Positions 23,935-39,574 of a stretch of 51,514 nucleotides of DNA are shown here, one piece after another. The stretch is from contig WGME01000036.1 in the NCBI GenBank assembly GCA_016125225.1, forward strand, positions 1 to 51,514, written 5' to 3'. The stretch's first letter is position 1; every line of letters begins with the position of its first letter. Made by a program: the position numbers and the translations under genes. The stretch comes from a bacterium. GTDB lineage: Bacteria > Planctomycetota > Planctomycetia > Planctomycetales > Planctomycetaceae. The notes under the pieces are model-generated. The model was not told the DNA's origin and searched no databases. It worked only from the letters and a program-made list of their open reading frames with translations.

Positions 23935-26664
23935 TCATGGGGTCTCTGCATTCCCGGAACGACATGCGGTCGATGGAAGGACGTGAGCGTATTTTGCAAT
24001 CAGAGCGATGAGTTCCGTTCGATTGACGGGTTTCGAGCAATAGTCGTTGCAGCCGATGGCCAGGCACTCTTCCCGGTCACCCACCATGGAATGGGCGGTC
24101 AAGGCGATAATCGGCGAGAGATAGCCTTGGTCTCGCAGTGTCCTGGTTGCCAGATAGCCATCCATCACAGGCATCTGCATATCCATCAGCACGACATCAT
24201 AGGGGCACTGATTGGCAGAAGCTTCCGTGACCGCCTCGATTGCCAGTTTGCCGTTGTCGACGACAGTCACGCTGGCACCGACTTTCTGTAAGACGAAGCG
24301 GATGAGTTTCTGGTTATCCTGGCCATCCTCGGCCAACAGAATGCGGGCGCCGGAGAGTGCTCCCTGTGGCTTACTGGCCTCGTCTGCTGATGGCGACGTC
24401 TGCGAATCTTTCGTTTGATCACCTGCATCGACGAGAGAATGGGATTCTCCCGAATCGGCAAGATTGTGCAGCACCAACCGAAACCGGGAGCCTTGCCCCG
24501 GCTGTGATTCGACAATGAAGACCTCTCCGTGCATCATTTCGGCAAGTCGCCGGCAAATGGTCAGGCCAAGTCCGGTGCCGCCATACTGCCGAGTCGTGGA
24601 GGCGTCGGCCTGCGTGAAGGGGTGAAACAATCGCTCCTGTTGCTCGGTGGTCATTCCGATCCCGGTATCGACCACGTCAATTTCGATCTGGTCGTTTTCT
24701 TGCTGTACCTGCCGAACGAGAATCTGGACGCTGCCGATTTCGGTGAACTTCAACGCATTGCCAATGAGGTTGATCAGAATCTGCCGCAAGCGTAAGGGGT
24801 CAGTGGAAACGGAATCACAAATGGCCGTTTCATATTCCACCCGCAGTTCCAGTCGTTTGCCCTGGGCACGGACCTGCATCAGGGTGACGACGTCCGAGAG
24901 AATTTCTGAAAGGGATTGAATCGAGAGTTGCACTTCCATCTTTCCGGATTCGATCTTAGACAAATCCAGAACGTCATTGATGATTTCCAGCAGGTTCTGT
25001 CCGTTGCGATAGATGGCCTCCGCGGCTTCTGTCACAAGCTGTTGTTCAATTGCTGCGGTATCGTCTGCAAGTAGTTCCGCATAGCCCAGGATGGCCGTCA
25101 TGGGTGTGCGGATTTCGTGACTCATGTTGGCGAGGAACTCGCTCTTGCTGCGATTGGCCGTTTCTGCAGCCTCTTTGGCTTTCCGCAATTCCTGCTTCCG
25201 GCGATGAAGCTCGGAGATATCGTGGCCTTCGGGCACGATCCAGATGACGCGGCCGTTATCATCAAAGACGGGTTTCATCAGGAAGTCGACCGTCACGATT
25301 TTCCCGTCAGGACTGGGATGATCGGTCACGTAGCGAACGGTTTCACCTTGTGCCACCTGTTGGACGGCCTCGCGAAGCTGGATCTGCATCTCCTTGGAAT
25401 GCGACCACCAGGGCGTATCCCAAAAGTACTTCCCCGCAACATCTGCCAGCGAGACGCCCGCAAAGTTCAACGCTGTTCTGTTGGCATCGATGACTCGCCC
25501 GTCGCGTTCGAGTAATCCCACGAACTGATAGGCTTGATCGAACATCACTCGAGCCCGGCTCGCCTGCAGTCGCTGTTCCGATTCCAGATTTTTGCGATCC
25601 GTAATATCGAATCGGATGGCGACAAACTCCTGGATGTTATCGTGCAAATCGCGGATGGGAACGATCGTGGTATAGACCCAGTAGGGACGTCCCGATTTGG
25701 TGCGATTACAGATCTCCGCTTCCCAGACTTCCCCACGTTGGATGGTCTTCCACATCTTGATCCAGAACTCTCGCGGGTGATAGCCCGAATTGATGATGCG
25801 ATGATCGGCACCAATCAGTTCTTGTCGGTTGTAGCCACTGATCGTGATGAATTGATCGTTGGCATGCAGGATCTTCCCTTTCCGATCCGTGATGGCAATG
25901 ATCGCGGATGCATCGAGTGCCGCGCGATATTCCTCGGCAATCTTCATGGCGGCCAGGCGGGCTTCTGCCATCTGCCGCGCGGTCTTTTGGGCCTGCCCCA
26001 CAGCTAGAATCGTGGAACGGAAGAGCACAGTAACAATCGTGACCACCAGAAGTCCGACAAAGGCCGCTAGTCCGACGATGTAACTCAGGGTCAAATCGTG
26101 CCGGGCGGCCCTTTCCACCTGGGCAATCTGCTGCCGAGTGACCTGCACCAGTTCATCAATGGCAGCATGATGAATCTCATATTCAGTGCGGAGATCGTTC
26201 TGCAGCAGATGCTGAGCGGCGTCATAATCTTGATGCTGAACCGCAGGGATCAGCTTGTCGTTCAATACCGCAAAGAACTGTTCTGCAGAATCACCGGAAC
26301 GATGCCAGGCGTTGTATTGCGGCGTACGGGGTTTCAGCGTCAGCCGCCAGACATTCATGCGGGCCTCGAAGGCCCGTTCGTGGTCCCGGAGGCGAGTGAC
26401 GAGCCTTTCGACATCGGGTTGATGATTGGCGTCGGTCAATTCCCAGGCCGTGGCATAACTCTCCACGAGGAACATGGGAGGGGGCAGGATATCAGCGATC
26501 AGGTCTTTATCACTGACGATCTGACGGTACAAAACGCCATCAATGCGGATGCGGTCGAAGATGTGGTACGCAACGGAACCCAGAATGAGACAGAGACCGC
26601 CGATCGCTGTCAGGACTCCTGGATGCCGAAGGTAACGCAGTGGTTGCACGAACGAACCCATCAA
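23935..26664 (-). CDS. Membrane hybrid histidine kinase with two PAS domains and C-terminal receiver
   Basis: A 909-aa kinase. The N-terminus (MMGSFVQPLRYLRHPGVLTA) leads into a first membrane helix at about 12-32. An extracytoplasmic helical sensor of about 155 residues follows, then a second helix near 190-212 (YIVGLAAFVGLLVVTIVTVL). Two PAS domains follow (about 240-360 and 370-490). The HisKA box is FLANMSHEIRTPMTAILGYAEL, and the ATPase shows N (LINLIGNALKFT), G1 (DTGIGMTTEQQERLF) and G2 (GGTGLGLTICRRLAEMM) boxes. The C-terminal receiver has AEDGQDN, LMDMQMPVMDG and a Lys in YCSKPV. All catalytic residues are present. The ligand is unknown. Either of the two first Met codons may start translation. 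Confidence 0.92.
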   Translation of the reverse strand: MMGSFVQPLRYLRHPGVLTAIGGLCLILGSVAYHIFDRIRIDGVLYRQIVSDKDLIADILPPPMFLVESYATAWELTDANHQPDVERLVTRLRDHERAFEARMNVWRLTLKPRTPQYNAWHRSGDSAEQFFAVLNDKLIPAVQHQDYDAAQHLLQNDLRTEYEIHHAAIDELVQVTRQQIAQVERAARHDLTLSYIVGLAAFVGLLVVTIVTVLFRSTILAVGQAQKTARQMAEARLAAMKIAEEYRAALDASAIIAITDRKGKILHANDQFITISGYNRQELIGADHRIINSGYHPREFWIKMWKTIQRGEVWEAEICNRTKSGRPYWVYTTIVPIRDLHDNIQEFVAIRFDITDRKNLESEQRLQASRARVMFDQAYQFVGLLERDGRVIDANRTALNFAGVSLADVAGKYFWDTPWWSHSKEMQIQLREAVQQVAQGETVRYVTDHPSPDGKIVTVDFLMKPVFDDNGRVIWIVPEGHDISELHRRKQELRKAKEAAETANRSKSEFLANMSHEIRTPMTAILGYAELLADDTAAIEQQLVTEAAEAIYRNGQNLLEIINDVLDLSKIESGKMEVQLSIQSLSEILSDVVTLMQVRAQGKRLELRVEYETAICDSVSTDPLRLRQILINLIGNALKFTEIGSVQILVRQVQQENDQIEIDVVDTGIGMTTEQQERLFHPFTQADASTTRQYGGTGLGLTICRRLAEMMHGEVFIVESQPGQGSRFRLVLHNLADSGESHSLVDAGDQTKDSQTSPSADEASKPQGALSGARILLAEDGQDNQKLIRFVLQKVGASVTVVDNGKLAIEAVTEASANQCPYDVVLMDMQMPVMDGYLATRTLRDQGYLSPIIALTAHSMVGDREECLAIGCNDYCSKPVNRTELIALIAKYAHVLPSTACRSGNAETP

Positions 26665-27134: not shown

Positions 27135-27689
27135 ATGTACGATCGGGCACGGCTCATTCAGTTGTTTCACGAGCGGGCACTCAAGTTTGGCGACTTCACG
27201 CTCGCTTCGGGCAAGAAGTCGACGTATTACCTCGATGGCAAGCAGATCAGCCTGCATTCGGAAGGCTTGCGTCTGGTCAGCTTCGGTCTGCTCGAACTCT
27301 TGAAGGATGTGACCTACGACGGCATCGGCGGTATGTCGATCGGAGCCGACCCGATTGTGGGTGGCGTGCTGACGGCAGCCGCGGAATCGCAGCGGTCGCT
27401 GGCGGGGTTCCTGGTCCGCAAGGAAGCCAAAGGCCATGGCACCAACAAGTACGTCGAAGGCCCTGTGCTGCCGGGCTCCAAGGTGATCGTGATTGACGAC
27501 GTGGTGACAACCGGGGGGAGTGCTTTGCAGGCGGTGGATCGCGTGACCGAATTTGGTTGCGAAGTGGTGGGCGTCGTGGGGATTGTCGACCGCATGGAGG
27601 GCGGGGCTAAGAACTTCGCCGATCGCGGGCTGCCCTTCTGGGCGTTGCTCAAGATCACCGACTTCGGAATCGAACCACCCCAGGCGTGA
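27135..27689 (+). CDS. pyrE: Orotate phosphoribosyltransferase
   Basis: A 184-aa cytoplasmic enzyme joining orotate to PRPP to give OMP in pyrimidine synthesis. The sequence has FTLASGKKSTYYLDGKQ near residue 20 (orotate site), the flexible-loop RKEAKGHGT near 95, and the PRPP-binding motif VIVIDDVVTTGGSALQAV near 115-132. Length fits the family (180-215 aa). The ATG at 27135 follows GCAGGC and is preceded by no better start. It stands alone, with no pyrimidine genes nearby, and a strong palindrome follows its stop. Confidence 0.95.
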   Translation: MYDRARLIQLFHERALKFGDFTLASGKKSTYYLDGKQISLHSEGLRLVSFGLLELLKDVTYDGIGGMSIGADPIVGGVLTAAAESQRSLAGFLVRKEAKGHGTNKYVEGPVLPGSKVIVIDDVVTTGGSALQAVDRVTEFGCEVVGVVGIVDRMEGGAKNFADRGLPFWALLKITDFGIEPPQA

Positions 27690-27715
27690 TTTGATTCGGC
27701 AACGGACACAAGATG

Positions 27716-27736
27716 CCCAGGGATGCTATCCCTGGG
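27716..27736. terminator. Perfect 9-bp hairpin between convergent pyrE and receiver gene
   Basis: CCCAGGGAT (27716-27724) and ATCCCTGGG (27728-27736) pair perfectly around a three-base loop, followed by TTT on the plus strand. It lies 26 bases after the pyrE stop and 14 bases before the stop of the convergent receiver gene. It could end transcription from both sides, although the T-run is short. Confidence 0.65.
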
Positions 27737-27749
27737 TTTCCACCACAGT

Positions 27750-28139
27750 TCAATCCGCATCCGCTGCGGCATCCGCGGCAAGTTTTTGAAGCAGTGGTTC
27801 CAGGTCGGCCTTTTTAATGGGTTTAACAAGGACCGATATCAACGGCGATTGAGCCACCGCACTGCCGGCGAGTTCCTGCGGATAGGCCGAGATAAAAATG
27901 ACAGGGACGGTCCGCTGCCGCCAGATTTCTTCGACCGCCGATAACCCGTCGCGCTGAGGCATCTTGAGATCGGTAATGATCAGGTCGGGTTGCGTGCGCT
28001 GGCACTCGGCGATCAGTTGATTGCCATCGGCCGCCACGGCGACCACCAGATGCCCCAGCCGTGGCAGCATCTTGGTCAGATAGTCGCGCATGTCGACTTC
28101 GTCATCGGCGATCGCGATTCTTAAGGGTGGTGAGGACAT
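27750..28139 (-). CDS. Single-domain response regulator, last gene of the cbb3 operon
   Basis: A 129-aa protein from the ATG at 28139 (MSSPPLRIAIADDEVDMRDY). The acidic pair is at 12-13, phospho-acceptor Asp57 is in LIITDLKMPQRDG, a Ser/Thr switch is in VIFISAY and Lys is in VLVKPIKK. There is no output domain; the tail is Ala/Asp-rich. The frame is open upstream for 35 more codons, but that part overlaps the kinase gene and does not look like a protein. It follows the PAS kinase by 22 bases on the same strand, so the two form a cotranscribed pair. Confidence 0.88.
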   Translation of the reverse strand: MSSPPLRIAIADDEVDMRDYLTKMLPRLGHLVVAVAADGNQLIAECQRTQPDLIITDLKMPQRDGLSAVEEIWRQRTVPVIFISAYPQELAGSAVAQSPLISVLVKPIKKADLEPLLQKLAADAAADAD

Positions 28140-28161
28140 GCGGCAACTCTCGACAGACGGT

Positions 28162-29640
28162 TCAAGCCGGCGTGGGAACAGAGGGATTGACGGTGGGTAA
28201 CCGCAAGACAATTTCGGTCCCGGCCAATAGCGGTCCAAGTTCAATCTCTCCGTGATGAGCTTCCATGATGCGGCGGGCGATCGGCATCCCCAGGCCGGTG
28301 CCTCGCGCTTTCGTCGTGAAAAACGGTTCGAACAAACGAGCCCGTTGTTCGGGGCTCATGCCGGAACCGTTGTCTCGCAAGGTGATCTGCAGGCCCGGCA
28401 GGTTTTGCCAGGAGATGGTTTCACTGGTGAGCGAGATCATGCCACCGGTGGCTGGCAGCGCCGCGATGGAGTTCTCAAAAATGTTCCGTAGGACCTGACA
28501 AAATCGATGACGATCGACATCGGCCACCGGAACCAGCGGGCAGTCATCTTGAAAGGTGATGGACTTGGTGCCCATTGACGGTGTCAGGTTCGCCCAGACT
28601 TGCCTCCAGAGTTCACGCAAGTTGGAAGACTGCAGTTCAAGCCGCAATGGAGCCGCGTATTCCCGAACCTCTTCGTAAAGCCGCTGCAATTCATCGACGG
28701 CACGTTGCGCGCGCTGGACAAGATCAAGTTCTTCCGGCTGCTGCTCAAGATCGACTTCGAGCATCTCCAGACAGGCTTGTGACCGTTGCAGGGCATTGCG
28801 GCTTTCGTGGGCGAGCGCGGTCATCATTTCGCCAATGGCCGCAAGCCGTTCGCTCTGCACCACCTGATCCTGCGCTCGAATTCGTTCGGTCACATCGTAC
28901 AGCAGCCAGACTTCATGCTGGTCGTCGCCATAGGCGGCTAGTTCAATCCATCGCCGTTGCTTATCTTTGCGGATGATTTCCAGGGTGCGGGTTTTCGGGA
29001 AGTGGAGGATGCGGTCGGCTTCGTACTGAGCCTGGACTTCTGCAGCCCGTTCACCGAAAAGCTGACCGAACCAGCTTTCCAAAGTGTGCAATTCCTGACG
29101 GGTATAGCCCGTGATCGCTTCGGTGGCTCGATTGGCGGCGATGACCGGGCCAGAGACATACACCGCCCCCGCAGGCAGATTGTCGATCATGAAACGCAAG
29201 CGGCGGTGCGATTCCTGCTGCCGTCGTTCGGCTTCCAGGCGACGGCGTTCGGTGATATCGACGATATGGACCATCACCTGCAGTTCATCGGGAAGTGGCA
29301 AGGGGTGCAGGCTGATGTCGCAGGGGAATTCGCTGCCATCCTTGCGCCGGGCCGTCAAATCTCGATTGGAACCAATCGGGCGGACGGTCGGAGCCCGCAG
29401 GTAACCATCGCGTAAAGGAATGTGATGCGGCCGCACCGAATCGGGCACCAGCACTTCGATGAATTGCCCGACGAGTTCTTCACGCGAGTAGCCAAACCAG
29501 CTTTCAATGCGTTCGTTGATCAATAAAATACGGGCCTTGGCATCCACCAGAATGATCCCCGCCGGCGAGGCTTCCAGCAGCAGCCGGAAACGCTCGTCCC
29601 ATTGTGGCACAGGTTTCATCGCGGAGGGTGGTTGAGTCAT
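28162..29640 (-). CDS. Soluble PAS-PAS sensor histidine kinase
   Basis: A 492-aa kinase without membrane segments. PAS 1 (about 15-135) contains ESWFGYSREELVGQ, VPDSVRPHHIPLRDGYL and RRKDGSEFPCDISLHPL. PAS 2 covers about 140-260. The HisKA box is MMTALAHESRNALQRSQ. The ATPase has N box LRNIFENSIAALP, G1 RDNGSGMSPEQRARLFEPFF and G2 GTGLGMPIARRIM. It lies at the end of the cbb3 oxidase gene series and upstream of a lone receiver, so a redox or oxygen input is a reasonable inference. The His residues in PAS 1 do not prove heme binding, since this sequence type is widespread in non-heme PAS domains. Confidence 0.9.
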   Translation of the reverse strand: MTQPPSAMKPVPQWDERFRLLLEASPAGIILVDAKARILLINERIESWFGYSREELVGQFIEVLVPDSVRPHHIPLRDGYLRAPTVRPIGSNRDLTARRKDGSEFPCDISLHPLPLPDELQVMVHIVDITERRRLEAERRQQESHRRLRFMIDNLPAGAVYVSGPVIAANRATEAITGYTRQELHTLESWFGQLFGERAAEVQAQYEADRILHFPKTRTLEIIRKDKQRRWIELAAYGDDQHEVWLLYDVTERIRAQDQVVQSERLAAIGEMMTALAHESRNALQRSQACLEMLEVDLEQQPEELDLVQRAQRAVDELQRLYEEVREYAAPLRLELQSSNLRELWRQVWANLTPSMGTKSITFQDDCPLVPVADVDRHRFCQVLRNIFENSIAALPATGGMISLTSETISWQNLPGLQITLRDNGSGMSPEQRARLFEPFFTTKARGTGLGMPIARRIMEAHHGEIELGPLLAGTEIVLRLPTVNPSVPTPA

Positions 29641-29680
29641 CGTATGCGGACCGTCTCACGGAAGCGGATATTCCCTAAGG

Positions 29681-30169
29681 TTACTGGGCCAGTACCAGGG
29701 AAACTTTGGCCGCCAGAATGGCCGCTCCCAGACCGTGCAGCAGCAAGATCAGAAAGCCGACGCCGATGAGCGTTTGCGTGCCGTCGTCTTTCCCGGCTTT
29801 GCGTCCCAGCAGGCGCGTGGAGATTGTCCCACAAATCCACGACCAATGCAGCATCACGTGCAGCGTCGCGGCCACGCCGAAAACACAGAAGACGGCGAAC
29901 AGTGTGTCGAGCCAGTCCGCCGCCGTGCCCCCCCAGATCGTGCTATGCAGATCGTTCCGAGGAAAGACGAGAGCCACGATGGTCAAGCACCAGGCTTGAA
30001 TCAGAAGCAGGATCAACAGGCCGACATCCAGCCAGAAATTGATCAGGGTTTTGTGTTTCGACCAGAACGAGTAACGGCTGGCTGTTCCAGCCGGAGTTGA
30101 AACGGCGGTCGCTTCGACAGGCTGGTTGGCCTTCGACTCATGAAGGCTATTGGATGTGGAATTTCCCAT
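29681..30169 (-). CDS. Four-helix membrane protein (DUF4405/cytochrome b561-like) in cbb3 cluster
   Basis: A 162-aa protein starting at ATG 30169 (MGNSTSNSLHESKANQ). After a polar N-terminus of about 35 residues come hydrophobic segments: FWLDVGLLILLLIQAWCLTI, a TM around LDTLFAVFCVFGVAATLHVML ending in HWSWI, and LIGVGFLILLLHGLGAAILA. The paired His residues (HVMLHW) resemble DUF4405 or b561-type membrane proteins, which may bind heme. Identification is tentative. The open frame continues upstream into the SafE-type gene, but that part is out of register with it. It lies 8 bases after the stop of the SafE-type gene. Confidence 0.6.
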   Translation of the reverse strand: MGNSTSNSLHESKANQPVEATAVSTPAGTASRYSFWSKHKTLINFWLDVGLLILLLIQAWCLTIVALVFPRNDLHSTIWGGTAADWLDTLFAVFCVFGVAATLHVMLHWSWICGTISTRLLGRKAGKDDGTQTLIGVGFLILLLHGLGAAILAAKVSLVLAQ

Positions 30170-30177
30170 GTCGACAC

Positions 30178-30939
30178 CTATGGCCGAGTGGCGATCGCCG
30201 GACGCAGAACCGCGTCGTGATCGGCAGATTGTGATGTGGAACAGAACGGGCAGCGCTCGGCTGGGGGAGCGGATGATGGTTTTATGAACGCGACTCCGCG
30301 TCCGACGGTCAGGCACCCGGTGAGGACCACAGACCAGGCAGCGGCTTTCCATAAACGCTGTCGCATGGTCAGTGACAGCAGCGAGCCTCCCACTCCTGTC
30401 AAAACCATTAATGGAACGGTGCCCGCCCCAAAGGCCAGCATGGTCAACAGGCCGTGCAGCATGTCTCCCGAACTCGCGGCCAGCGAAACAAAGGCGTAAA
30501 CCAGTCCGCAAGGCAACCACCCGGTGAAGACCCCCGCGGCAAAGGCGTGTCGCAAAGCGGGGTATTTCAGCAGCGTGGCAAAGAGCGAACCGAACAGGCA
30601 GCCGGTATTGGCCGTGGCGGATGAGCGATGACGGAACCAGCCCGCCGCATGCAATCCTTGCCAGATCAGGAAGACTCCGGCCAGCAGGCACAACAGTGCT
30701 GGCACATTGATCATCGCCGGGACACGTTTGGCCAGTGAATGGCCAGCGAAACCAGCCATCGCTCCCAATGTGGCATAACTCGCCAGACGACCGGCGCTGT
30801 AGGCGAGTTGCCCGCGCAGGTTCTGCCAGAACGAGGGCCGCCCCATTCCCAGCATCAGGGCAAAGCCACCGCACATTCCCAGGCAGTGCGATGACCCCAG
30901 CAGACCACCCAACGCGATCAGTCCATAGGACCAATTCAT
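30178..30939 (-). CDS. Sulfite exporter TauE/SafE family protein of the cbb3 assembly cluster
   Basis: A 253-aa integral membrane protein starting at ATG 30939 (MNWSYGLIALGGLLGSSHCL). It carries the diagnostic HCLGMCGGFALMLG motif, six to seven hydrophobic segments and a second helix bundle starting FAAGVFTGWLPCGLVY. The short C-terminal tail has CPFC, a possible metal ligand. In many bacteria this family sits next to ccoI and ccoS and is thought to help copper delivery or maturation of cbb3 oxidase; its name as a sulfite exporter is historical. The start overlaps the ccoI stop by ATGA, showing translational coupling. Confidence 0.85.
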   Translation of the reverse strand: MNWSYGLIALGGLLGSSHCLGMCGGFALMLGMGRPSFWQNLRGQLAYSAGRLASYATLGAMAGFAGHSLAKRVPAMINVPALLCLLAGVFLIWQGLHAAGWFRHRSSATANTGCLFGSLFATLLKYPALRHAFAAGVFTGWLPCGLVYAFVSLAASSGDMLHGLLTMLAFGAGTVPLMVLTGVGGSLLSLTMRQRLWKAAAWSVVLTGCLTVGRGVAFIKPSSAPPAERCPFCSTSQSADHDAVLRPAIATRP

Positions 30940-33095
30940 GGTGTGGCCTCCATCGTCACCGCAGGCCATGTGGACTCCGCGGGAGTGGCTTGAGCGAGAG
31001 GCTCGGAAACGTGACTGGTCGCCGGTTTCAATCGCAATGAATTTCCAAGCACCATCAGGCTGCTGACCACCATCAGGATCGCCGCGATCGCCGGATGTAA
31101 CATCCCGCTGGCTGCCAGGATCACGCCCAGGCTGTTGTAGCCAAACGACCAGGCCAGGTTCTGGCGGATGATCTGGACGGTCGTGCGGGCATGGCCGATC
31201 GACCAAGGGACCAATCGCAGATCATTCGGCAGCAAGCAAAGATCGGCCGAATCCCGTGTGACATCGGCCCCGCATCCCAGTGCGATGCCGATATCGGCCG
31301 CCGCCAGCGCGGGAGCATCATTCAGCCCATCACCCACCATCGCCACACTGCCGCACTTCACGTGAGCCTCGCGGATCGCCTGCAGCTTTTCTTCCGGGAG
31401 CAATTCGGCTTCGACGGGGATGCCCAACTGCTGTTGCCAGTAGGCTCCGCGCTCGCGGCGATCTCCCGTCAACACGGCAAGATCAAGGCCGAGTGACCGG
31501 CACTCTTCCATGGCAGTGCGAGTCTCTGGCCGCAAGACTTCATCTAGAAGAAACACTCCGCGAATCTTCTGGCCCCAACCGACACAGACGTTGGCGGTTT
31601 CGAGTTGACCGGAATCAGACAACAAAGCAGAGAACCTCGGCCCCGCCTGCAGTCCCCGTTCCTGCATGAAGGTGCAGGAGCCCAGCGCAACTTCGCCCAG
31701 TGCAGGCACCGTGAGACATAAGCCCCGGCCTGCGACGGTTTCGACTTCGGCTGTTGTGGTCTCTGCCGGTGTCAGTTCGAGGTGACGTCGGATGGCTTCG
31801 GAGTAGATGTGTGTGGAACCGCCGACCAGTGCGCTCGCCAGTTCCATGACCAGTGGTGCTTCCTCGGCCGTTTCACAGATCAGTGTCCGAACACTCGGAG
31901 TTCCGGTGGTGAGAGTTCCGGTCTTGTCCCAACGGATCGCGCGAACTTTTGCCAGCCGTTCCAGAGCCGCTCCGCTGCGGAAGAGGACACCTCGTTGAGC
32001 GGCATGAGCCAGCGAGGCCCAGATAGCGACGGGGGTGGCCAATGCCAGGGCACAGGGGCAGGCAATCAACACGACCGAGAGGGCTGTCATCAGGCCGGTA
32101 TCCCACCCGGTCACACTACCGTGATACAGACCGGTCGCCAGAGACACCACGGCAATGATGGGAAAGAACCGGGCCGACCATTGATCGGCGAGCAACTGGA
32201 ACTCTCCCTTCTGCAGTCGCGCTGTTCGCACCGATTCGATCAATCGACCCAAGGCCCCCGCCGTCGCCGGTGCCTGCACATCGATCAGCAGATCGCCATC
32301 GAGGTTCAAACTGCCGCCGAGCACCTGGCCGCCGACTGCTTTCTCGACGGGTTGGCTTTCTCCGGTGAAGAAGTGTTCGTCGACCACAGCCCGACCACGG
32401 ATGATCTCGCCATCGACGGGAATCCGCTCACCGGGCAGGACGCGAACCTGCTGACCGATGGCCACCTCATCGCGGGGCAACATATATGTGAAGCCGTCTT
32501 TGCACACGCAACGAATCGTCGCGGGAATCAGTTGTTCGAGTTCGTCGAGCGCGGACGAGGCTTGCAGTCGACCGGTTGCTTCCAGCCACCGTCCCAGCGT
32601 CACCAGTACAAGAATCACGCAACTGACTTCGAAGTACACATGACTCTGGGCTCGCACGGTCGCCACCACCGACACGATAAAGGCGGCAATGACTCCGGTC
32701 AGTAGCAGTAGATCGGTAGAAAGTTGACCGCGCCGTAACTGCTCGACCGCATTGATCGCAAGGGCTTGACCTAAAAGCAGGACGACCGGGGCGGAAAAGA
32801 GCAACCCGCCATAACGCAGAAAGTCGGCCAGGCCCGCTTCAAAGGGTGTCTGAGCCTGGTCGGCGTAGCTCCATAACGCCATGGTCATCATCACGACGTT
32901 CATCGTGCAGAAGACCGAAAGGCCCAGCGTGGTGGCCATCCACCGGGCTTCCCCCTGCTCTCCTGTGGCCCCCGTCATCTGGGCTGCGAAGCGGCAACCG
33001 AAGCAGCAATACGCAGGGCCATCATCGCTCGCCGTGCCGACAACCGGCAGGCTGCAATAGTGGCACAACTGCGAATCGTGATCGGGCGACTTCAT
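30936..33095 (-). CDS. ccoI: Copper-translocating P1B-type ATPase, CcoI type
   Basis: A 719-aa pump from ATG 33095 (MKSPDHDSQLCHYCSLPVVG). The N-terminus has no HMA domain; it carries the Cys-rich binding domain CHYC...CCFGC known from cbb3-associated ATPases (PF12156 type). The helix motif is CPCALALATPVAIW (CPC copper site). The actuator domain has FFTGESQPVEK, the phosphorylation site is DKTGTLTTGTP and the hinge is GDGLNDAPALAAADIG. Known role of the family: export of Cu(I) to the periplasm for the CuB centre of cbb3 oxidase. The frame is open for 28 codons further upstream, overlapping the small gene before it. The start chosen overlaps that gene's stop (ATGA). Confidence 0.93.
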   Translation of the reverse strand: MKSPDHDSQLCHYCSLPVVGTASDDGPAYCCFGCRFAAQMTGATGEQGEARWMATTLGLSVFCTMNVVMMTMALWSYADQAQTPFEAGLADFLRYGGLLFSAPVVLLLGQALAINAVEQLRRGQLSTDLLLLTGVIAAFIVSVVATVRAQSHVYFEVSCVILVLVTLGRWLEATGRLQASSALDELEQLIPATIRCVCKDGFTYMLPRDEVAIGQQVRVLPGERIPVDGEIIRGRAVVDEHFFTGESQPVEKAVGGQVLGGSLNLDGDLLIDVQAPATAGALGRLIESVRTARLQKGEFQLLADQWSARFFPIIAVVSLATGLYHGSVTGWDTGLMTALSVVLIACPCALALATPVAIWASLAHAAQRGVLFRSGAALERLAKVRAIRWDKTGTLTTGTPSVRTLICETAEEAPLVMELASALVGGSTHIYSEAIRRHLELTPAETTTAEVETVAGRGLCLTVPALGEVALGSCTFMQERGLQAGPRFSALLSDSGQLETANVCVGWGQKIRGVFLLDEVLRPETRTAMEECRSLGLDLAVLTGDRRERGAYWQQQLGIPVEAELLPEEKLQAIREAHVKCGSVAMVGDGLNDAPALAAADIGIALGCGADVTRDSADLCLLPNDLRLVPWSIGHARTTVQIIRQNLAWSFGYNSLGVILAASGMLHPAIAAILMVVSSLMVLGNSLRLKPATSHVSEPLAQATPAESTWPAVTMEATP

Positions 33096-33268
33096 GGAGG
33101 CGTCAGCAGTTCCGATTGAATGGCCGGTAAAAAGTTGCGGATGACATAGGCTGCCGCAAAGATCCAGAACACCACCCACATCAGACGGACATACCAGGGA
33201 ATCACGCTGCTGAAGTAAGTGTGGTACTGCAGATCGTTTTCGGGTGCGCCAGAGTTAGGGCTGGTCAT
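33092..33268 (-). CDS. 58-aa single-helix membrane protein, possible stand-alone CcoP N-terminal (FixP_N-like) anchor
   Basis: A short frame from ATG 33268 reads MTSPNSGAPENDLQYHTYF, then a helix with VIPWYVRLMWVVFWIFAAAY, and ends in SELLTPP. Its stop overlaps the ccoI ATG (ATGA), so it is surely translated with ccoI. The W-rich helix preceded by a short polar arm resembles the membrane anchor of CcoP/FixP or a CcoQ-type peptide. The cytochrome c of this cluster lacks such an anchor. The peptide may therefore be the separated anchor subunit; this is inference from position and shape. It is below the size limit of most gene-finding. Confidence 0.65.
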   Translation of the reverse strand: MTSPNSGAPENDLQYHTYFSSVIPWYVRLMWVVFWIFAAAYVIRNFLPAIQSELLTPP

Positions 33269-33320
33269 GGTCGAGTCTTTGCAAAAGCCGGATCAGTCGA
33301 ACACAGATACGTCGAACGCA

Positions 33321-33617
33321 TCATCGCAACGGCGTGGCAGAACGCCGGTCAAGTTCCTGTTCGTTCTCGAACATCACGCGGCTGGGTTCATCGAGGTTGT
33401 GAAACGCCCCTTGTGTGGCGGTCCATAACAGCAGGCAGACAAATCCCGCTGTGGCGAACAGGTAATTCACGATGGGGGTCGCGGCGAAGGCCCCCTCTTC
33501 ATCTCCCTGAATCACGAGAATCAGGTCGAGAAACTTGTTGGCGAAACCCAGAACCGTGGGAATCAGCACAATTGCCGAGAAGAGCCAGAACCACCAGTTA
33601 TGACGGTGCGATTTCAT
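33321..33617 (-). CDS. CcoS-like cbb3 oxidase assembly protein with extra N-terminal helix
   Basis: A 98-aa protein from ATG 33617 (MKSHRHNWWFWLFSAIVLIP). It has two membrane helices: about 9-28 and about 53-72 (VNYLFATAGFVCLLLWTA). Right after helix two comes TQGAFHNLDEPSRVMFENE, matching the signature following the single helix of CcoS/FixS (SGQFDDLDTPAHRILF type). Canonical CcoS is 45-70 aa with one helix; here an extra helix and a loop precede it. Known CcoS is needed for cofactor insertion into the oxidase. The place between ccoO and ccoI agrees. The N-terminal extension is unusual. Confidence 0.65.
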   Translation of the reverse strand: MKSHRHNWWFWLFSAIVLIPTVLGFANKFLDLILVIQGDEEGAFAATPIVNYLFATAGFVCLLLWTATQGAFHNLDEPSRVMFENEQELDRRSATPLR

Positions 33618-33667
33618 GAGAACCTGCCTGTACGTCAAGTGCGATCAGAGCGACAAGAACAAATCGA

Positions 33668-34357
33668 CTACTCTTCGGTTGCCGCGATGGTTTTGATCGG
33701 CGTCGGTTGGAAGTCTTCGTAGTACGGATAGCTTTCGAGCCAAGAACCCAGCCATTGCACATAAGTCATCAAGGCCAGGCCGCGAGCGTTTGGCTTGTCG
33801 GGAGCACCGTCGAACAACCACGGGTACTTCGGCATGGGCGATTTCGGCGACAGCATGTCGGGTTGATAGAAATGGACCGCATGCCAATCGTTGGAGCGTC
33901 GGCCCCCTTCCCGGCTGAGATCGGGGCCCACCCGTCGTGTCCCGAACATCACCGGCCGTTGCAGACGGTTCTGGTATTCCCACGACTTGGAGACCGGTCC
34001 CCAGCGGCGATCTTCATTTGAGACCGGCCGCACGAACTGGCTGTGGCAGTGCCAGCAGCCTTCGCCGATGTAAACCTTGCGGCCCAGTTCCAAGGCCTCG
34101 GCACACTTCGCGTTGTACCATTCGGCTGCCTGTTCAGGATCGCTGGGCGGTTCCCCATAAGCGGCGGTGAATGAATCGGGATAACGCTGGGCCAGGTCTT
34201 CGAACTGATACCGCACGTTTCCGTTGACCACTTCCAACACCGTTTTTTCGGGCAGATGCCGGTACATCAGAATGGGAATCACCGCGTTCGACAGAAACGC
34301 AAAGGCGAAGAACCCAACGCCGGCGATCAGCAATATGCCGGACTTCTTTTCGAACAT
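33668..34357 (-). CDS. ccoO: cbb3-type cytochrome c oxidase subunit II (monoheme cytochrome c)
   Basis: A 229-aa subunit from ATG 34357 (MFEKKSGILLIAGVGFFAFA). One N-terminal membrane anchor (about 8-30) is followed by a periplasmic cytochrome domain: the heme-binding CWHCH near residue 101 in YIGEGCWHCHSQFVRPV, then GTRRVGPDLSREGGR and the axial-Met region SPMPKYPWLFD. These are the classic CcoO signatures. It passes electrons to the heme b/CuB site of CcoN. It is 159 bases downstream of ccoN in the same direction. Confidence 0.95.
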   Translation of the reverse strand: MFEKKSGILLIAGVGFFAFAFLSNAVIPILMYRHLPEKTVLEVVNGNVRYQFEDLAQRYPDSFTAAYGEPPSDPEQAAEWYNAKCAEALELGRKVYIGEGCWHCHSQFVRPVSNEDRRWGPVSKSWEYQNRLQRPVMFGTRRVGPDLSREGGRRSNDWHAVHFYQPDMLSPKSPMPKYPWLFDGAPDKPNARGLALMTYVQWLGSWLESYPYYEDFQPTPIKTIAATEE

Positions 34358-34516
34358 AGTGACTCACTCCACAGGAACTCAGAGCCAGCGTGGTTGCCGC
34401 CACTGAGGGATGAAACATGTTCTGTATTCAGTGCTGAGTGATCAGCGACCCTTCGTGCCATCAGGAAGGCATGGCCTTGGTCACTCAGCTCTTGGCTCTC
34501 AACACTTCGTTCACTT

Positions 34517-35917
34517 CTAAGCGGCTGCGACGGCCAGCGTTCGTGATTTCCGCCAGGTCATGTAGAAGTTCACCATGAACAGCACCTGAGCAAAGAACAT
34601 CACCAGACCGGCGACGATACGGACCGACCAGAACGGGATCGAAACATTTACCGACGATTCCCACGGTTGCAACGCAGCCCACGACCAACCCTGGAACAAA
34701 CCACCGAGAATCAGGTCACCCGCCATCACCATCAAACCACCAGCCGAAGCCCAGTAGTGCACTTCACACCAGTCGGGCCGATACCAGTCGGTTTTCAGGA
34801 TGCGGGGGATGAGATAGGTCATCGCTCCCAGTTGCCACATGCTGAAGACACCGAACATCACCATGTGAGCATGGCCCACCACCCAGTCGGTAAAGTGGAT
34901 CAACGCCTGGAAGGTCAGTGTGGTTTGCAGGGCACATTGCAGGCAGGTCAGGAAGTAGAACGCGATGCCGGTGTAGAAGTATCGTAACGGCAGATTCCGC
35001 AGCACAGCCCCGCCGGTGCCCCACAGCGTTCCCACAAAGTTGATGATGACCGTAACCACCACCATTTCGAGGGCAATTGTCGACAGCACCGCCCCATATT
35101 GCAGGAACATGGGAATTGGCGTGTACAGGAAGTGATGGATGCCCTGCAGCGGATAGAAGAAGGCCAGACCCCAGAAGCCGACAAGCGAGAGCCCGTGGCT
35201 CCACATCGGTCGCTTGAGCAGAATCGGCACGAAATAGTACATCATGCCCCAGCCCAAGGGGGTGACGAACAACCCCACAAGATCGTGAATGAACAACCCG
35301 CCCACGGCACCGGCGCTTGATCCACACACGAAGTATTCCGGGACGAAGTTGCCCATCGCATAGGTCAGGAAAGTCCAGACCAGACCGGCGAGGTAATACC
35401 ACAAGGTGACGTACAACGGCCCCTTCACCTGAATGATTGGTGTGCCGAAGTTGATCGCGACGAGCAGCAGTCCCGCTTGAGCCAGCGGATCGATCCAGAC
35501 CGGCGTTTCGCCCCACTCCAACCCTTGGGCTTCCCCCATCAGCAGACCGACGGCCGTGGAGAGAACCACGAACTGCCAGGCACAGAAAATGAAATAAGAC
35601 AGCGAACGGCTCAGCACCGGCCGCAAGGTCAAGCGGGGCACAATCCAGTGCATCAAACCGAGAAAGGCATTCGCGATGAAGCCATAGGCGATGGCGTTCG
35701 TATGCACCATCCGCCATCGACCCGGTGAGAAGAGTTCGATGGTGGGGAGTGGGTTGTGCCGCAGCAACTGCAAGCCCATCAGAATACCGGCCAGCATCGC
35801 CACGAACATGAAGGTCAACGCGGCGACGAAGTACCATAAGACGAGGCGTTCCTCGACCAGGTCTTCATGCCGGGGCAAGTCGCTATCAGCCGCAATGGGA
35901 GTCTCTGTTGTCATCAT
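34517..35917 (-). CDS. ccoN: cbb3-type cytochrome c oxidase subunit I
   Basis: A 466-aa catalytic subunit with about twelve membrane helices. The low-spin heme and CuB ligands are recognisable: VHTNAIAYGFIANAFLGLMHW, LFIHDLVGLFVTPLGWGMMYY, GIHHFLYTPIPMF and DWVVGHAHMVMFGVF with the paired heme His (HAH). It reduces oxygen to water with high affinity and contributes to proton pumping. The N-terminus MMTTETPIAADSDLPRHEDL is cytoplasmic; either of the first two Met codons may be used. The usual length is about 470-490 aa, so it is complete. ccoN follows the membrane-protein gene by 54 bases. Confidence 0.96.
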   Translation of the reverse strand: MMTTETPIAADSDLPRHEDLVEERLVLWYFVAALTFMFVAMLAGILMGLQLLRHNPLPTIELFSPGRWRMVHTNAIAYGFIANAFLGLMHWIVPRLTLRPVLSRSLSYFIFCAWQFVVLSTAVGLLMGEAQGLEWGETPVWIDPLAQAGLLLVAINFGTPIIQVKGPLYVTLWYYLAGLVWTFLTYAMGNFVPEYFVCGSSAGAVGGLFIHDLVGLFVTPLGWGMMYYFVPILLKRPMWSHGLSLVGFWGLAFFYPLQGIHHFLYTPIPMFLQYGAVLSTIALEMVVVTVIINFVGTLWGTGGAVLRNLPLRYFYTGIAFYFLTCLQCALQTTLTFQALIHFTDWVVGHAHMVMFGVFSMWQLGAMTYLIPRILKTDWYRPDWCEVHYWASAGGLMVMAGDLILGGLFQGWSWAALQPWESSVNVSIPFWSVRIVAGLVMFFAQVLFMVNFYMTWRKSRTLAVAAA

Positions 35918-35971
35918 TCCCTGGAATCCGTGGTAACCAGAACCGTGCGAAATCGAGCGTTGTCGACTCTC

Positions 35972-36631
35972 TCAGTGCGACGGTGTGGAAGTCGGTTGTT
36001 GATAGACCTGAAAACGTCCTAACGGATACGTCAACGCGAGCGTCCAGCCAAAGACCAGATGGGTCACGGCGGCCACCCAGGTCGGGAGGATCGCCGGATC
36101 TGTGATCCAGTTCCCTCCGATCAAAGCGGGTTGCAGCCACGACAGCACGCCATAGAAATTGATCACCCACAACACCAGCGACAGCACGGTGGCGACACCG
36201 AGCCGGTAGCCCAGCGACTTTCCATCCGTAAACCGCGCGAGAATGACATAGAACGGAACGCCGAGGACCATGCCCGTGGCGAGATACAGGCAACAGCCAA
36301 TCGCCAGCATCACCCCGTCACCGATGGCATAGACGTCGGTCTGTTCGGCCGCGATCCGCAACGCCTGTTCGCCAAGCGGAAACGTGAGATAGACCCGAAT
36401 CAGTTCAAGCGGACTTTTTCCCGCGATCGGGGCACCGATCACGTTGACCATCAAGCTGGCCATGGCACCGAAGATCCCGAGCAGGAAACCGGTGGTGGCA
36501 TAGTATTCCCAGTAGAAGCCTTTCGGTGGCCACTGCTGGGGTGTGGTCTTGGCAGCGAGTTCTTCCTCCAGACGCTCAATGCGATCACGGAGTTCTGCCA
36601 GTTCGTTTTGTTTGCGATCGTCGAGCATCAT
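35972..36631 (-). CDS. Membrane protein of the cbb3 operon, unknown function
   Basis: A 219-aa protein from the paired ATG codons at 36631/36628 (MMLDDRKQNELAELRDRIER); a TTG at 36661 would add ten residues. An N-terminal coiled-coil-like stretch (LAELRDRIERLEEELAAK) is followed by about five hydrophobic segments: GFLLGIFGAMASLMVNVIGA, GVMLAIGCCLYLATGMVLGV, YRLGVATVLSLVLWVINFYG and WVAAVTHLVFGWTLALTYPL. No heme motif is seen, though His residues lie in the last helix. It lies between the diheme cytochrome and ccoN and is presumably an accessory or structural oxidase component. I know similar genes in this place in planctomycetes, but no function. Confidence 0.8.
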   Translation of the reverse strand: MMLDDRKQNELAELRDRIERLEEELAAKTTPQQWPPKGFYWEYYATTGFLLGIFGAMASLMVNVIGAPIAGKSPLELIRVYLTFPLGEQALRIAAEQTDVYAIGDGVMLAIGCCLYLATGMVLGVPFYVILARFTDGKSLGYRLGVATVLSLVLWVINFYGVLSWLQPALIGGNWITDPAILPTWVAAVTHLVFGWTLALTYPLGRFQVYQQPTSTPSH

Positions 36632-36718
36632 CGCCGGGGTTTCCGCAAAGGCCGCGAACAATATTTCTGAAGCCTGTCCACCAGACAGACCGGGTGCGTT
36701 GATGGGCAGTCACGAGAG

Positions 36719-37783
36719 CTAAGGCGTATCGTCCGCGTCAGTCGCCGCCGAAGTTTCCGTGCTCTCTTCCTTGGGGAGATATGGCCGCGTCAAACCTGGC
36801 AATGGCATCTGCCCTTCACGTCGATGATTCGAGACACTCAACACATAAGCCACCAGATCCCAGATGGTGTCGGGTTCATTCTGCAAAGCACTGGCGAAAC
36901 CGGGCATGGGGGTGCCATTGATGCCGGAGTAAATGCGGCGATAGATGTCAATCGGCCTGGTGCCCCCATGCAACATGCCGGAAGAGAGGTCGGCCGCACG
37001 GGTCGGTTGCCCCCAGGCATCGTTGCCACGGTTTTCCGCCGTCTGTCCACGACCATCTTCACCGTGACACTTGGAGCAGCCTTTGGTCAGGAATGCGGCT
37101 TTGCCCCGCTCGACATTCTCCGAAGTGAATTTCGGGGGCGGTGTCAGCGGGCGAACTTCTCCTTCATCGCCATCCTGCCAGCGTTGCAGTACTGTCGGCA
37201 CCAGATCTTCCTCGACCATCTCCGGATCGATTTCTTCTTCTGATTCCGCAGTCAACGCCAGCAACTCTTCCAGCTCACCGCGACGTGATAAGTAGAGCAC
37301 ATAATCGACCACCGATTGCAGGTCGTGCTCGGGCAACAAGGCAAAGCCCGGCATCGAGGTTCCACGGATACCCAGTCGTACCGTGCGCACCAGGTCATCA
37401 CGTTGCGGCCGTGCTCCATAGGGTGTCGAGGTGAATTTGAACAATCCGCGGCGGTAATCGCGGGGCTTGGGGTACATGTACTTGGCCGCCTCGCCTTGAC
37501 CATCGCCCGTCACACCGTGGCATTGCACGCAGCGTTCCTGATAGACCGCCTGGCCGCGTGCCAGATCGGGTTTCGGTAGATCACTCTCGGCGATCAGCAG
37601 CGGGTGTTGGTACGTCCCCGCATACTTGACGAGTTCGGTTTTCGCCGCCGTTTGCAACTCGTCCGGCAACTCCGTCATTTGAGTGCTGGACACATATTGC
37701 GGCGGATCGGCCCGATGGCATCCGGCCGCTCCGATCACCAGGCAGGTCAGCCATGCGGACCCACTCATCCAGCGCCTATTCAC
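36719..37783 (-). CDS. Diheme cytochrome c lipoprotein, CcoP-equivalent, first gene of the cbb3 operon
   Basis: From the GTG at 37783 (NRRWMSGSAWLTCLVIGAAGC), with GGGAG a few bases upstream, the product is 354 aa; ATG 37768 is the alternative. The lipobox GAAGC predicts lipid anchoring at Cys22. Two cytochrome c domains follow: heme 1 in YQERCVQCHGVTGDGQG with Met in RGTSMPGFALL, and heme 2 in LTKGCSKCHGEDGRGQT with Met in NGTPMPGFASAL. An acidic linker (EESEEEIDPEMVEED-like) separates them. It should be the electron-entry subunit, playing the part of CcoP, but without the CcoP N-terminal membrane helix. A sigma-54 promoter candidate lies about 75 bases upstream. Confidence 0.88.
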   Translation of the reverse strand: MNRRWMSGSAWLTCLVIGAAGCHRADPPQYVSSTQMTELPDELQTAAKTELVKYAGTYQHPLLIAESDLPKPDLARGQAVYQERCVQCHGVTGDGQGEAAKYMYPKPRDYRRGLFKFTSTPYGARPQRDDLVRTVRLGIRGTSMPGFALLPEHDLQSVVDYVLYLSRRGELEELLALTAESEEEIDPEMVEEDLVPTVLQRWQDGDEGEVRPLTPPPKFTSENVERGKAAFLTKGCSKCHGEDGRGQTAENRGNDAWGQPTRAADLSSGMLHGGTRPIDIYRRIYSGINGTPMPGFASALQNEPDTIWDLVAYVLSVSNHRREGQMPLPGLTRPYLPKEESTETSAATDADDTP

Positions 37784-37857
37784 ACGCAAGCTCCCGACAG
37801 AAATCACGTTGTTCCACGCCTGCACATCGGGCGGAATCACGTCTGCCCACCCTCTCT

Positions 37858-37873
37858 TGCAACCGCGATGCCA
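37858..37873 (-). promoter_or_regulatory. Sigma-54 (-24/-12) promoter candidate of the cbb3 operon
   Basis: The minus-strand sequence TGGCATCGCGGTTGCA matches the RpoN consensus TGGCAY-R-N4-TTGCW at all invariant positions (GG and GC with the correct ten-base spacing); only the R position differs. The transcription start would be near 37847, leaving a leader of about 64 bases before GTG 37783. A divergent sigma-54 activator gene begins 190 bases away, which makes the match much more likely to be real. Confidence 0.7.
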
Positions 37874-37967
37874 GACCGAACATTCCCGCTGCAAAATGAT
37901 CAATGTGCTGTTTCTATGGGAAAATCGGACGCTGTCGAACCCTCTCGGCAGACCACGCGAAAATTGA

Positions 37968-38007
37968 AGTGTGCGGCGGCGTCACATGAGATGCGTGCAG
38001 TGTGCGG
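37968..38007. promoter_or_regulatory. Two AGTGTGCGG direct repeats, possible activator-binding (enhancer) sites
   Basis: AGTGTGCGG occurs at 37968-37976 and again at 37999-38007, exactly 31 bases apart, or three helical turns. They lie about 110-150 bases upstream of the sigma-54 promoter candidate and directly in front of the sigma-54 activator gene at 38062. This is the usual distance and phasing for NtrC-type activator sites. They could serve both operon activation and control of the activator gene. Binding is inferred. Confidence 0.5.
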
Positions 38008-38061
38008 ATTTGGCACAATTGGGTTTGAGAACCTGCCCTCGCCGATCATGAGCACTGCCGG

Positions 38062-39402
38062 ATGGACATTCTGATAGTTGAAGACGATGACGATTTTCGC
38101 CTGACGGTCCGGCAATGGATGATCCGTCGCGGACATCATGTCGTCGATGTGTCTCGCGGAGGTTTAGCGCTCGAACAGCTGGCTCAACACTGCTTCGATG
38201 TCGCCATCGTCGATCTGCATCTGCCTGACATGACCGGCCTGACTTTGCTGCAGCAGTGTGACGTTTCGGTCTGTGAAACCGAGATGATCATGCTGACGGG
38301 GGCCGCGACTGTCGAAACCGCCGTCGAGGCGATGAAGTGCGGTGCCCATGATTATCTGACCAAACCGTTTCCGCTATCCGCGTTGGAAGAACGCTGCCGC
38401 CGAGCTGCCGAACATGGCCGCCTGAAGAAGGAAGCCCGGCAGTGGAAGACGCTGGCCCGTCGTCAACAGGTCCCGCGAGAAATCGTGGGCAACTCCCCTG
38501 CTTTACGCGCGGCCCTGCAATTACTGGAACGCGTGGGACCTTCCGATAAGCCAGTGCTGGTTCTCGGTGAAACGGGAGTGGGGAAAGAACTGGCAGCCCG
38601 GGCCGTGCAACGCTTCAGTCAGCGAGCCGATCGCCCGTTTGTCGTCGTGAACTGTGCAGCCCTGCCGGAACAGTTGGTCGAGAGCGAACTCTTCGGCCAT
38701 GAGAAAGGGGCATTCACCGGAGCGATGGAAGCCCGCCCCGGACTCTTCGAAGTCGCGGACGGGGGCACGTTGTTCATCGATGAAATCGGCGAACTCCCCC
38801 TCGCCATCCAGCCGAAGCTACTGCGAGTGCTGGAATACGGGGCCCTTCGTCGCGTCGGGTCGACACAAGAACGGCGGGTTGATGTGCGCATCATTGCGGC
38901 GACGAATCGTGCTCTCGAACAGGAAGTCTGTGAGCATCGATTCCGCGAGGATCTGTACTACCGCATCAATGTTTTGCCGATCACGTTGCCTCCCTTGCGC
39001 GACCGGGCCGATGATGTCCCGTTGCTCGTCGCCCATTTTCTGCCCACGGGATGGACCATCGATGACGAAGCCCTGGCTGCCCTGCAGCGGTATCCGTGGC
39101 CGGGCAATGTCCGCCAGTTGCGGAATGTGATCGATCGTGCCAGTGTCCTCGCTACCTCGAACGTGGTGCAGATGGATGATCTGCCCACAGAGATCGTCAA
39201 TGGATGCGACGCCGCTCTCACCGTTAACGCCACTGAAGAGGGGGCACCGGCGGGTGAGCAACTGGTGGAGATGGAACGCCAGCATGTTCAGGAAATCCTG
39301 CAGAAGTACGCCGGCAACAAGTCGCTCGCGGCGCGGGCGCTGGGCGTTCATCGCCGCAAACTCTACCGCATCTTGGACCGCCTCGGTTTGAAGGACGTTT
39401 AA
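38062..39402 (+). CDS. Sigma-54-dependent response regulator (NtrC family)
   Basis: A 446-aa three-domain activator. The receiver (1-115) has acidic residues EDDDD at 7-11, Asp51 in AIVDLHLPD and Lys in YLTKPF. The AAA+ domain (about 140-370) has Walker A GETGVGKEL, the sigma-54 contact loop GAFTGA, Walker B LFIDEIGELP, the sensor stretch VRIIAATNRAL and the arginine-finger region FREDLYYRINVLPI. The Fis-type DNA-binding helix-turn-helix is at 405-446 (GNKSLAARALGVHRRKLYRI). All parts are intact. It is divergent from the cbb3 operon, whose first gene has a -24/-12 promoter. No kinase gene is adjacent, so the PAS kinase at the end of that operon is the best candidate partner. Confidence 0.93.
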   Translation: MDILIVEDDDDFRLTVRQWMIRRGHHVVDVSRGGLALEQLAQHCFDVAIVDLHLPDMTGLTLLQQCDVSVCETEMIMLTGAATVETAVEAMKCGAHDYLTKPFPLSALEERCRRAAEHGRLKKEARQWKTLARRQQVPREIVGNSPALRAALQLLERVGPSDKPVLVLGETGVGKELAARAVQRFSQRADRPFVVVNCAALPEQLVESELFGHEKGAFTGAMEARPGLFEVADGGTLFIDEIGELPLAIQPKLLRVLEYGALRRVGSTQERRVDVRIIAATNRALEQEVCEHRFREDLYYRINVLPITLPPLRDRADDVPLLVAHFLPTGWTIDDEALAALQRYPWPGNVRQLRNVIDRASVLATSNVVQMDDLPTEIVNGCDAALTVNATEEGAPAGEQLVEMERQHVQEILQKYAGNKSLAARALGVHRRKLYRILDRLGLKDV

Positions 39403-39574
39403 CGTAACGGTGCCCGAATGCCTTGCGACTTTACCACGGTCGCTCGTTCCGCCATGATGCCAGTTCATCCGATGACGACTTCCACTGACGGCTGGCACAA
39501 CGTCTTCATGCGACTTCATCTGCTGTAGAGCATGGTCTGGCACCGTCAGTGCACAGAGAGAAACAGGTTCGGTG

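Follow-up and report, generated by a model that had tools for sequence, protein, structure and literature searches.

A predicted sigma-54 switch divergent from an NtrC-type activator at a cbb3-type oxidase operon of the Planctomycetaceae

Respiration at trace oxygen is made possible by cbb3 oxidases, and their textbook control relies on FNR/FixK-type factors. The stretch of DNA analysed here, hereafter the window, comprises the 51,514 nucleotides of contig WGME01000036.1 (assembly GCA_016125225.1), from a bacterium of the family Planctomycetaceae. It carries a cbb3-type oxidase operon on the minus strand and, divergent from it, the gene of an NtrC-type response regulator. The original prediction, made from the sequence of the window, had placed a sigma-54 control module between the two, and conservation in relatives supports this proposal. 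As best read, the locus probably encodes an oxygen-responsive two-component switch that would drive the operon through sigma-54.

Genes and predicted regulatory elements at the locus

The intergenic elements, the regulator gene and the operon, in that order, are as follows.

37858-37873, minus strand: -24/-12 sigma-54 promoter element, TGGCATCGCGGTTGCA; GG and GC at the correct spacing, near consensus
37970-37986, no strand assigned: putative promoter-proximal enhancer dyad, TGTGCGGCGGCGTCACA; centre at about -131, proposed from sequence and conservation
38001-38017, no strand assigned: putative distal enhancer dyad, TGTGCGGATTTGGCACA; centre at about -162, 14 bp beyond the first dyad
38062-39402, plus strand: NtrC-type response regulator with a receiver, an AAA+ domain with GAFTGA and a Fis helix-turn-helix; divergent from the operon, assigned by domain matches and a tree
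36719-37768, minus strand: diheme cytochrome c, ccoP-like; it opens the operon, with its ATG at 37768
35972-36661, minus strand: membrane protein, conserved and without a match in Pfam; start listed at the first TTG
34517-35917, minus strand: CcoN-like catalytic subunit of a cbb3-type oxidase, by homology to solved chains
33668-34357, minus strand: CcoO/FixO-like cytochrome c subunit, by domain match
33321-33638, minus strand: small membrane-like protein, conserved in relatives
30936-33179, minus strand: heavy-metal (copper) P-type ATPase, CcoI-like; the true start may be internal
30178-30939, minus strand: DsbD_2-family transmembrane protein; start placed at an inner ATG
between the DsbD_2 gene and the kinase gene, minus strand: further membrane-like open reading frame
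28162-29640, minus strand: PAS-PAS-HisKA-HATPase kinase with a FixL-like PAS1 and a HESRNAL box; it probably pairs with the activator
27750-28139, minus strand: stand-alone receiver protein, last gene; start placed at an inner ATG
27716-27736, minus strand: terminator-like hairpin directly after the receiver gene, probable end of the operon

Because they lie on the same strand, are separated by small gaps and end at a hairpin, the operon genes presumably form one transcript. The hairpin has the longest stem among the 14 terminator-like matches in the region, where 9.2 would be expected from shuffled sequence. Residues 26-460 of the CcoN-like protein align with the solved cbb3-type chain 9g6b (6.5e-41) and residues 29-458 with 3mk7 (1.1e-38), and the Y...GxHH pattern of the solved cbb3 chains is retained. 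The NCBIfam equivalog cut-offs are not reached by ccoN (178 of 583 bits) or by ccoO (104 of 201), and the shortfall of ccoN is the reason for regarding the oxidase, judged by its sequence, as a divergent cbb3-type enzyme.

That a complete activator with GAFTGA starts at 38062 and runs in the opposite direction, as had been predicted, is confirmed at three levels. The open reading frame 38062-39402 encodes 446 residues; receiver, sigma-54-interaction and Fis-type helix-turn-helix domains were found; and the protein has the GAFTGA motif, a Walker A sequence (GETGVGKE) and, where the phosphorylated residue usually lies, an aspartate. The genome contains a single copy of rpoN. In a tree of the activators, those of genera g1 and g34 form a single clade (support 100/97). 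L133 and L124 were omitted from the underlying alignment because they duplicate L204 and L221, and L145, L154 and L173 were omitted from the tree; activator matches in G016, G019 and G024, with scores similar to those taken, were left out. Elsewhere in the family, at L134 (G078), a 200-residue receiver protein whose tail is ANTAR-like by eye (positions 2473-3075, minus strand) directly precedes an NtrC-type regulator.

The predicted sigma-54 promoter and the paired dyads

The element TGGCATCGCGGTTGCA is oriented toward the minus-strand operon, whose first ATG is at 37768. The predicted -24/-12 match therefore stands, with GG and GC correctly spaced, and arithmetic from it places the transcription start at about 37847, leaving a 5' leader of about 79 nucleotides. 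A search for sigma-70 promoters found none in 27400-38100, where 3.1 were expected; the lack of sigma-70-like matches in 37600-38200 says little, since just 0.2 would be expected there by chance. The window has a second exact match to TGGCAY-N6-TGCA, TGGCACCGTCAGTGCA, at 39538-39553 on the plus strand, 18 bp before the GTG (39572) of a sulfatase gene. In this match G replaces the first T of the consensus TTGC and the predicted start almost touches the sulfatase start codon; it is probably a chance occurrence.

Upstream of the promoter, two direct repeats 31 bp apart had been noted at enhancer distance. The window does contain two copies of AGTGTGCGG, one at 37968 and one at 37999, 31 bp apart, but each is only the left half of a 17-bp inverted repeat, TGTGC-N7-(T/G)CACA, so that the sites are better described as two dyads separated by a gap of 14 bp. 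This description goes beyond the original prediction, as do the probable partner kinase and the receiver protein that close the operon and the NmpR precedent discussed below. Even with as many as three mismatches allowed, the paired dyad, taken as a unit, has a single occurrence in the genome of 6.35 Mb (reversed-pattern control, 0). The single dyad, at up to one mismatch, gives 11 matches genome-wide, two inside the window and nine elsewhere, versus four for the reversed pattern.

The pair is conserved. In genera g1 and g34 it is found at exactly 31 bp in all seven loci that have the activator (the window, L111, L112 and L173-L176), and a pattern search recovers the same seven. From the start of the first dyad to the -24 element the distance in these loci is 86-97 bp (one base less by a second count), while the distance from the -24 element to the first gene ranges from 102 to 318 bp. 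The dyad-to-promoter distance is thus held as the promoter-to-gene distance varies, a coupling that would be required of an enhancer.

Less regular arrangements were also seen. Upstream of the cytochrome c gene, L134 and L163 show by eye a related yet different inverted arrangement, ACGTGCG-NN-TGTGCACG, followed in L163 by TTGTATAAT. In L202, L203, L225 and L204 (g53 and g5), GCACA half-sites lie at steps of about 20-22 bp upstream of the -24 element, unlike the 31-bp pair.

Conservation in the family

The family sample, 67 loci in all, comprised the window and every other ccoN locus but one (66 of 67; G026 was omitted); an order-level search gave the same result as the family search. Fifty-seven loci were usable for counting the -24/-12 element, eight being without a cytochrome match and two having less than 200 bp of upstream sequence. 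The element was found in 28 of the 57, spread over 13 of 29 genera, compared with a mean of 0.4 in shuffled sequences (maximum 2 in 60 shuffles) and 0 on the other strand. When 8-mers were counted over the 29 genera (seed genera included) with no motif as seed, both motifs headed the ranking of excess over expectation: GTGCGGAT in 9 genera (0.9 expected), TGGCACAC in 8 (0.9), CTGTGCGG in 8 (1.1) and AGTGTGCG in 7 (1.0), the highest count of any 8-mer over 30 shuffles being 8. Half-sites (TGTGCG/CGCACA) lie 30-230 bp upstream of the -24 element in 13 of 21 non-seed loci, versus 4.5 in shuffles (maximum 11 in 200 shuffles).

An activator match of at least 49% was present in 14 of the 67 ccoN stretches, the window included; among these are one fragment, located where its contig ends, and two matches at a distance of 3-5 kb. 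Nine loci, again including the window, have the divergent activator within 1 kb of the operon. These are the relatives with the same gene pair in which conservation was to be checked according to the original prediction, and there the -24/-12 element (score at least 5.7) recurs in eight of nine and the 31-bp pair in seven of nine. These comparisons lend good support to the predicted arrangement of -24/-12 promoter and enhancer sites.

Within genera g1 and g34, an activator ortholog is found in seven of 14 genomes, the site pair is found in the same seven, and the remaining seven have neither; for four of the latter (G155, G159, G161 and G095) only 100 first-look candidates were scored. One genome with neither, G025, also lacks a ccoN match. 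The 14 genomes do not count as independent events, given their common descent, the incompleteness of genomes and the short distance between the sites and the activator gene. Among those without the activator, G155 and G161 have poor -24/-12 matches and G095 has none. In G154 (L173) the activator gene, which has in-frame stops, an altered receiver and GAFTRA for GAFTGA, looks broken, and the site pair, with a worn first dyad, carries more mismatches than any other of the seven, as if the circuit were being lost. In three g34 loci without the activator, L172 (G155), L177 (G095) and L178 (G161), another NtrC-type regulator, 35-40% identical, and a kinase match lie near the cbb3 operon; this could be either a regulator swap or a chance neighbour.

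A FixL-like kinase at the end of the operon

A domain search of the kinase 28162-29640 found PAS domains and no globin match. The best PDB matches of PAS1 are heme PAS chains of FixL (2cmn, 4e-12; 1dp6, 7e-12), DosP chains scoring lower. H73 of the kinase aligns to the column of the heme-ligand His of FixL, and this His is kept in all six g1/g34 kinases examined. These features are only suggestive of heme binding and oxygen sensing.

The evidence for pairing of the kinase with the activator is good, as far as sequences can tell. A kinase match lies within 2 kb of the activator in 27 of 60 activator stretches, and the HESRNAL box of the window kinase is shared, by eye, with 22 of these 27 neighbouring kinases; the same position reads HEIRN in two comparison chains. 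The PAS stretches of the kinases at L117, L118, L123, L124, L126, L131, L133, L135 and L139 are by eye more FixL-like than that of the window kinase, and two of these loci, L124 and L133, are themselves cbb3-linked.

The proposed switch and its alternatives

At low oxygen, the PAS kinase encoded at the end of the operon would phosphorylate the NtrC-type regulator, which would then bind both dyads as an oligomer. Its GAFTGA motif would contact sigma-54 polymerase at 37858-37873, and ATP hydrolysis would open the promoter. The products would include the oxidase, the copper pump and assembly factors as well as more kinase and receiver protein, so that the circuit would feed back on itself; I infer both the oxygen signal and the feedback. 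If this is true, dependence on a sigma-54 activator together with kinase feedback would allow respiration to be switched sharply. A fuller version, in which I place somewhat less than even confidence, is that a FixL-type oxygen-sensing kinase acts directly on an NtrC-type enhancer-binding protein and through it on the sigma-54 promoter of a whole cbb3 operon including the kinase and receiver genes, the link recurring in rearranged layouts across the family and being lost together with the sites in some members.

Several observations weigh against the proposed switch. The strings themselves are weak: TGGCAYN6TGCA at up to one mismatch has 15 matches in the window, versus 8.5 in shuffles, of which 4 in 100 also reach 15; TGGCAYNNNNNTTGCW has 16 copies genome-wide and its reversed pattern 12; and at least two AGTGTGCGG turn up in 16 of 100 shuffled versions of the window. 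Alone, the -24/-12 and repeat strings are thus near background in both window and genome. The -24/-12 score is hand-made, with GG and GC required and a range of 350 bp of the operon; 29 of the 57 family loci lack a recognisable element; and counts of 6-mers and 7-mers gave no word above the shuffle maximum. Outside the family, where 28 loci less seven without a cytochrome match and one with too little upstream sequence left 20, the element was found in three, and in none of nine in family f2 (counts made with no shuffle comparison). Even with a divergent activator, L163 lacks both motifs and L146 the site pair. In loci without a -24/-12 element, for which the search window was set from the gene start, half-sites were found in 7 of 28, versus 3.9 expected (maximum 9). 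G153 (L170) keeps a good -24/-12 element and has no dyads, and no activator was found there, on a contig that ends 427 bp upstream.

The activator and the kinase add points of the same kind. Linkage to cbb3, mapped on the activator tree, requires 8 changes against a shuffle mean of 12.1 (one of 500 shuffles as low). A cbb3 ccoN is visible in just 6 of 60 regulator-centred family stretches, many of them short, which is why the analysis was moved to ccoN-centred loci; in 80 loci, L001-L080, there were no matches to ccoN, ccoO or the cytochrome and two to the P-type ATPase. L001, the best regulator match among named contigs, bears the label Planctomycetota and falls with members of this family in the activator tree. 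A His in the column of H73 is, finally, common in PAS domains, and heme binding by PAS1 is therefore argued from resemblance.

The first alternative accepts the promoter and the activator and disputes the signal: the kinase would respond to redox state, to copper or to some further cue, or the regulator would be driven by another kinase. The PAS stretches of kinases near related activators are highly variable, the FixL-type His being kept in 12 of the 27, and the operon encodes a copper pump. The standing of FixL chains over DosP chains among the PAS1 matches, and the His retained in the six g1/g34 kinases, speak for oxygen instead. I consider a signal other than oxygen unlikely, though well worth keeping in mind.

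A second alternative holds that the dyads serve chiefly to autoregulate or repress the activator gene and that transcription of the operon starts from another promoter. There would be room for autoregulation, since the distal dyad starts just 25-65 bp before the activator start codon in the seven loci (the start of L173 being extrapolated). Against this stand the constrained distance from the first dyad to the -24 element, the lack in the seven g1/g34 loci of any -24/-12 match above a score of 4.0 facing the activator gene, and the occurrence of half-sites upstream of -24/-12 elements in loci mostly without an adjacent activator; together they make it improbable.

Classic control by FNR, FixK or CRP, with the -24/-12 match as decoration, is what general knowledge of cbb3 operons would suggest, and CRP-like boxes at up to two mismatches do occur in 15 of the 57 loci (shuffle mean 10.8, maximum 14 in 20 shuffles), a marginal excess perhaps due to the TGTG and CACA contained in the dyads themselves. 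However, CRP boxes at up to one mismatch number 1 of 57 (0.7 in shuffles); TTGAT-N4-ATCAA is found in 3 of 57 at up to one mismatch (1.1 in shuffles, maximum 3) and in 12 at up to two (11.0); and the best FNR/FixK and CRP boxes in the window have three and four mismatches. Since the boxes show no clear excess over the 57 family loci, FNR/FixK control was rejected; it is very improbable here. A chance motif among ordinary neighbours, which the near-background strings would allow, is scarcely credible: because the strings are weak, it is conservation in the relatives examined that carries the case, and the exact 31-bp spacing in seven of seven loci speaks strongly against chance.

Relation to known systems

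Two classical systems resemble parts of the proposed switch. In rhizobia, FixL-FixJ-FixK controls fixNOQP, FixJ acting through the CRP/FNR-type FixK. The likeness lies in the FixL-type PAS kinase as putative oxygen sensor and in the cbb3 operon as target; the difference is that an NtrC-type activator and a sigma-54 promoter take the place of FixJ and FixK, FixK boxes not being enriched. Promoters of the NtrC/glnAp2 type have two dyads about three helical turns apart, more than 100 bp upstream of the -24/-12 element; dyad spacing and upstream position are alike here, whereas the target and the site sequence differ.

The closest precedent is the NmpRSTU system of Myxococcus xanthus (McAllister et al. 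2025, PMC11841059). There an NtrC-like regulator, NmpR, binds paired dyads, which are 14-15 nucleotides apart in five of seven bound promoters; its targets include an operon with a P-type ATPase and a cbb3 oxidase; the upstream kinase is heme-dependent; and at the mxan_4236 promoter, which is induced by hypoxia, the sigma-54 site is required. The likeness is one of layout: an NtrC-like regulator, paired dyads (14 bp apart here) and a target with a cbb3 oxidase and a P-type ATPase. The sites differ (GCGCA-N5-TGCGC there, TGTGC-N7-(T/G)CACA here). So do the sensors, a protoglobin kinase feeding a hybrid kinase there and a FixL-like PAS kinase here. The gene order also contrasts: here the activator gene diverges from the oxidase operon, at the end of which the kinase is encoded. 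The original prediction had called sigma-54 control of such an operon an unusual wiring. NmpR (PMC11841059) is a precedent for NtrC-type/sigma-54 control of a cbb3 operon, and the module is best read as a variant of this recently described NmpR-like control.

In a 2025 survey of sigma-54 regulons (PMC12316311), many gene groups of Planctomycetia are assigned predicted sigma-54 promoters; the strings cytochrome, oxidase, cbb3 and respirat are absent from its main text, supplements aside. No description of a switch leading from a FixL-type kinase through an NtrC-type regulator to a sigma-54 promoter of cbb3 genes was found in the open literature searched, and an older Pirellula sigma-54 study cited in that survey leaves an earlier mention possible. 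About half of the family cbb3 loci examined carry a predicted sigma-54 promoter, which in the window's own group is accompanied by a FixL-like sensor and an activator of the NtrC type. Taken with NmpR of Myxococcus, the finding suggests that high-affinity respiration comes under sigma-54 control more widely than the usual models have it, and the module offers exact bases, a candidate binding site and a sensor domain as experimental targets.

Unlike in NmpRSTU, no conserved hybrid kinase was seen at the cbb3 loci compared. A hybrid kinase encoded at 23935-26664 in the window was considered as a counterpart of NmpS and rejected, having merely 22-31% matches in the relatives compared. The stand-alone receiver protein at 27750-28139 is kept in five relatives (56-84%) and could, by analogy with the role proposed for NmpT, serve as a phosphate sink.

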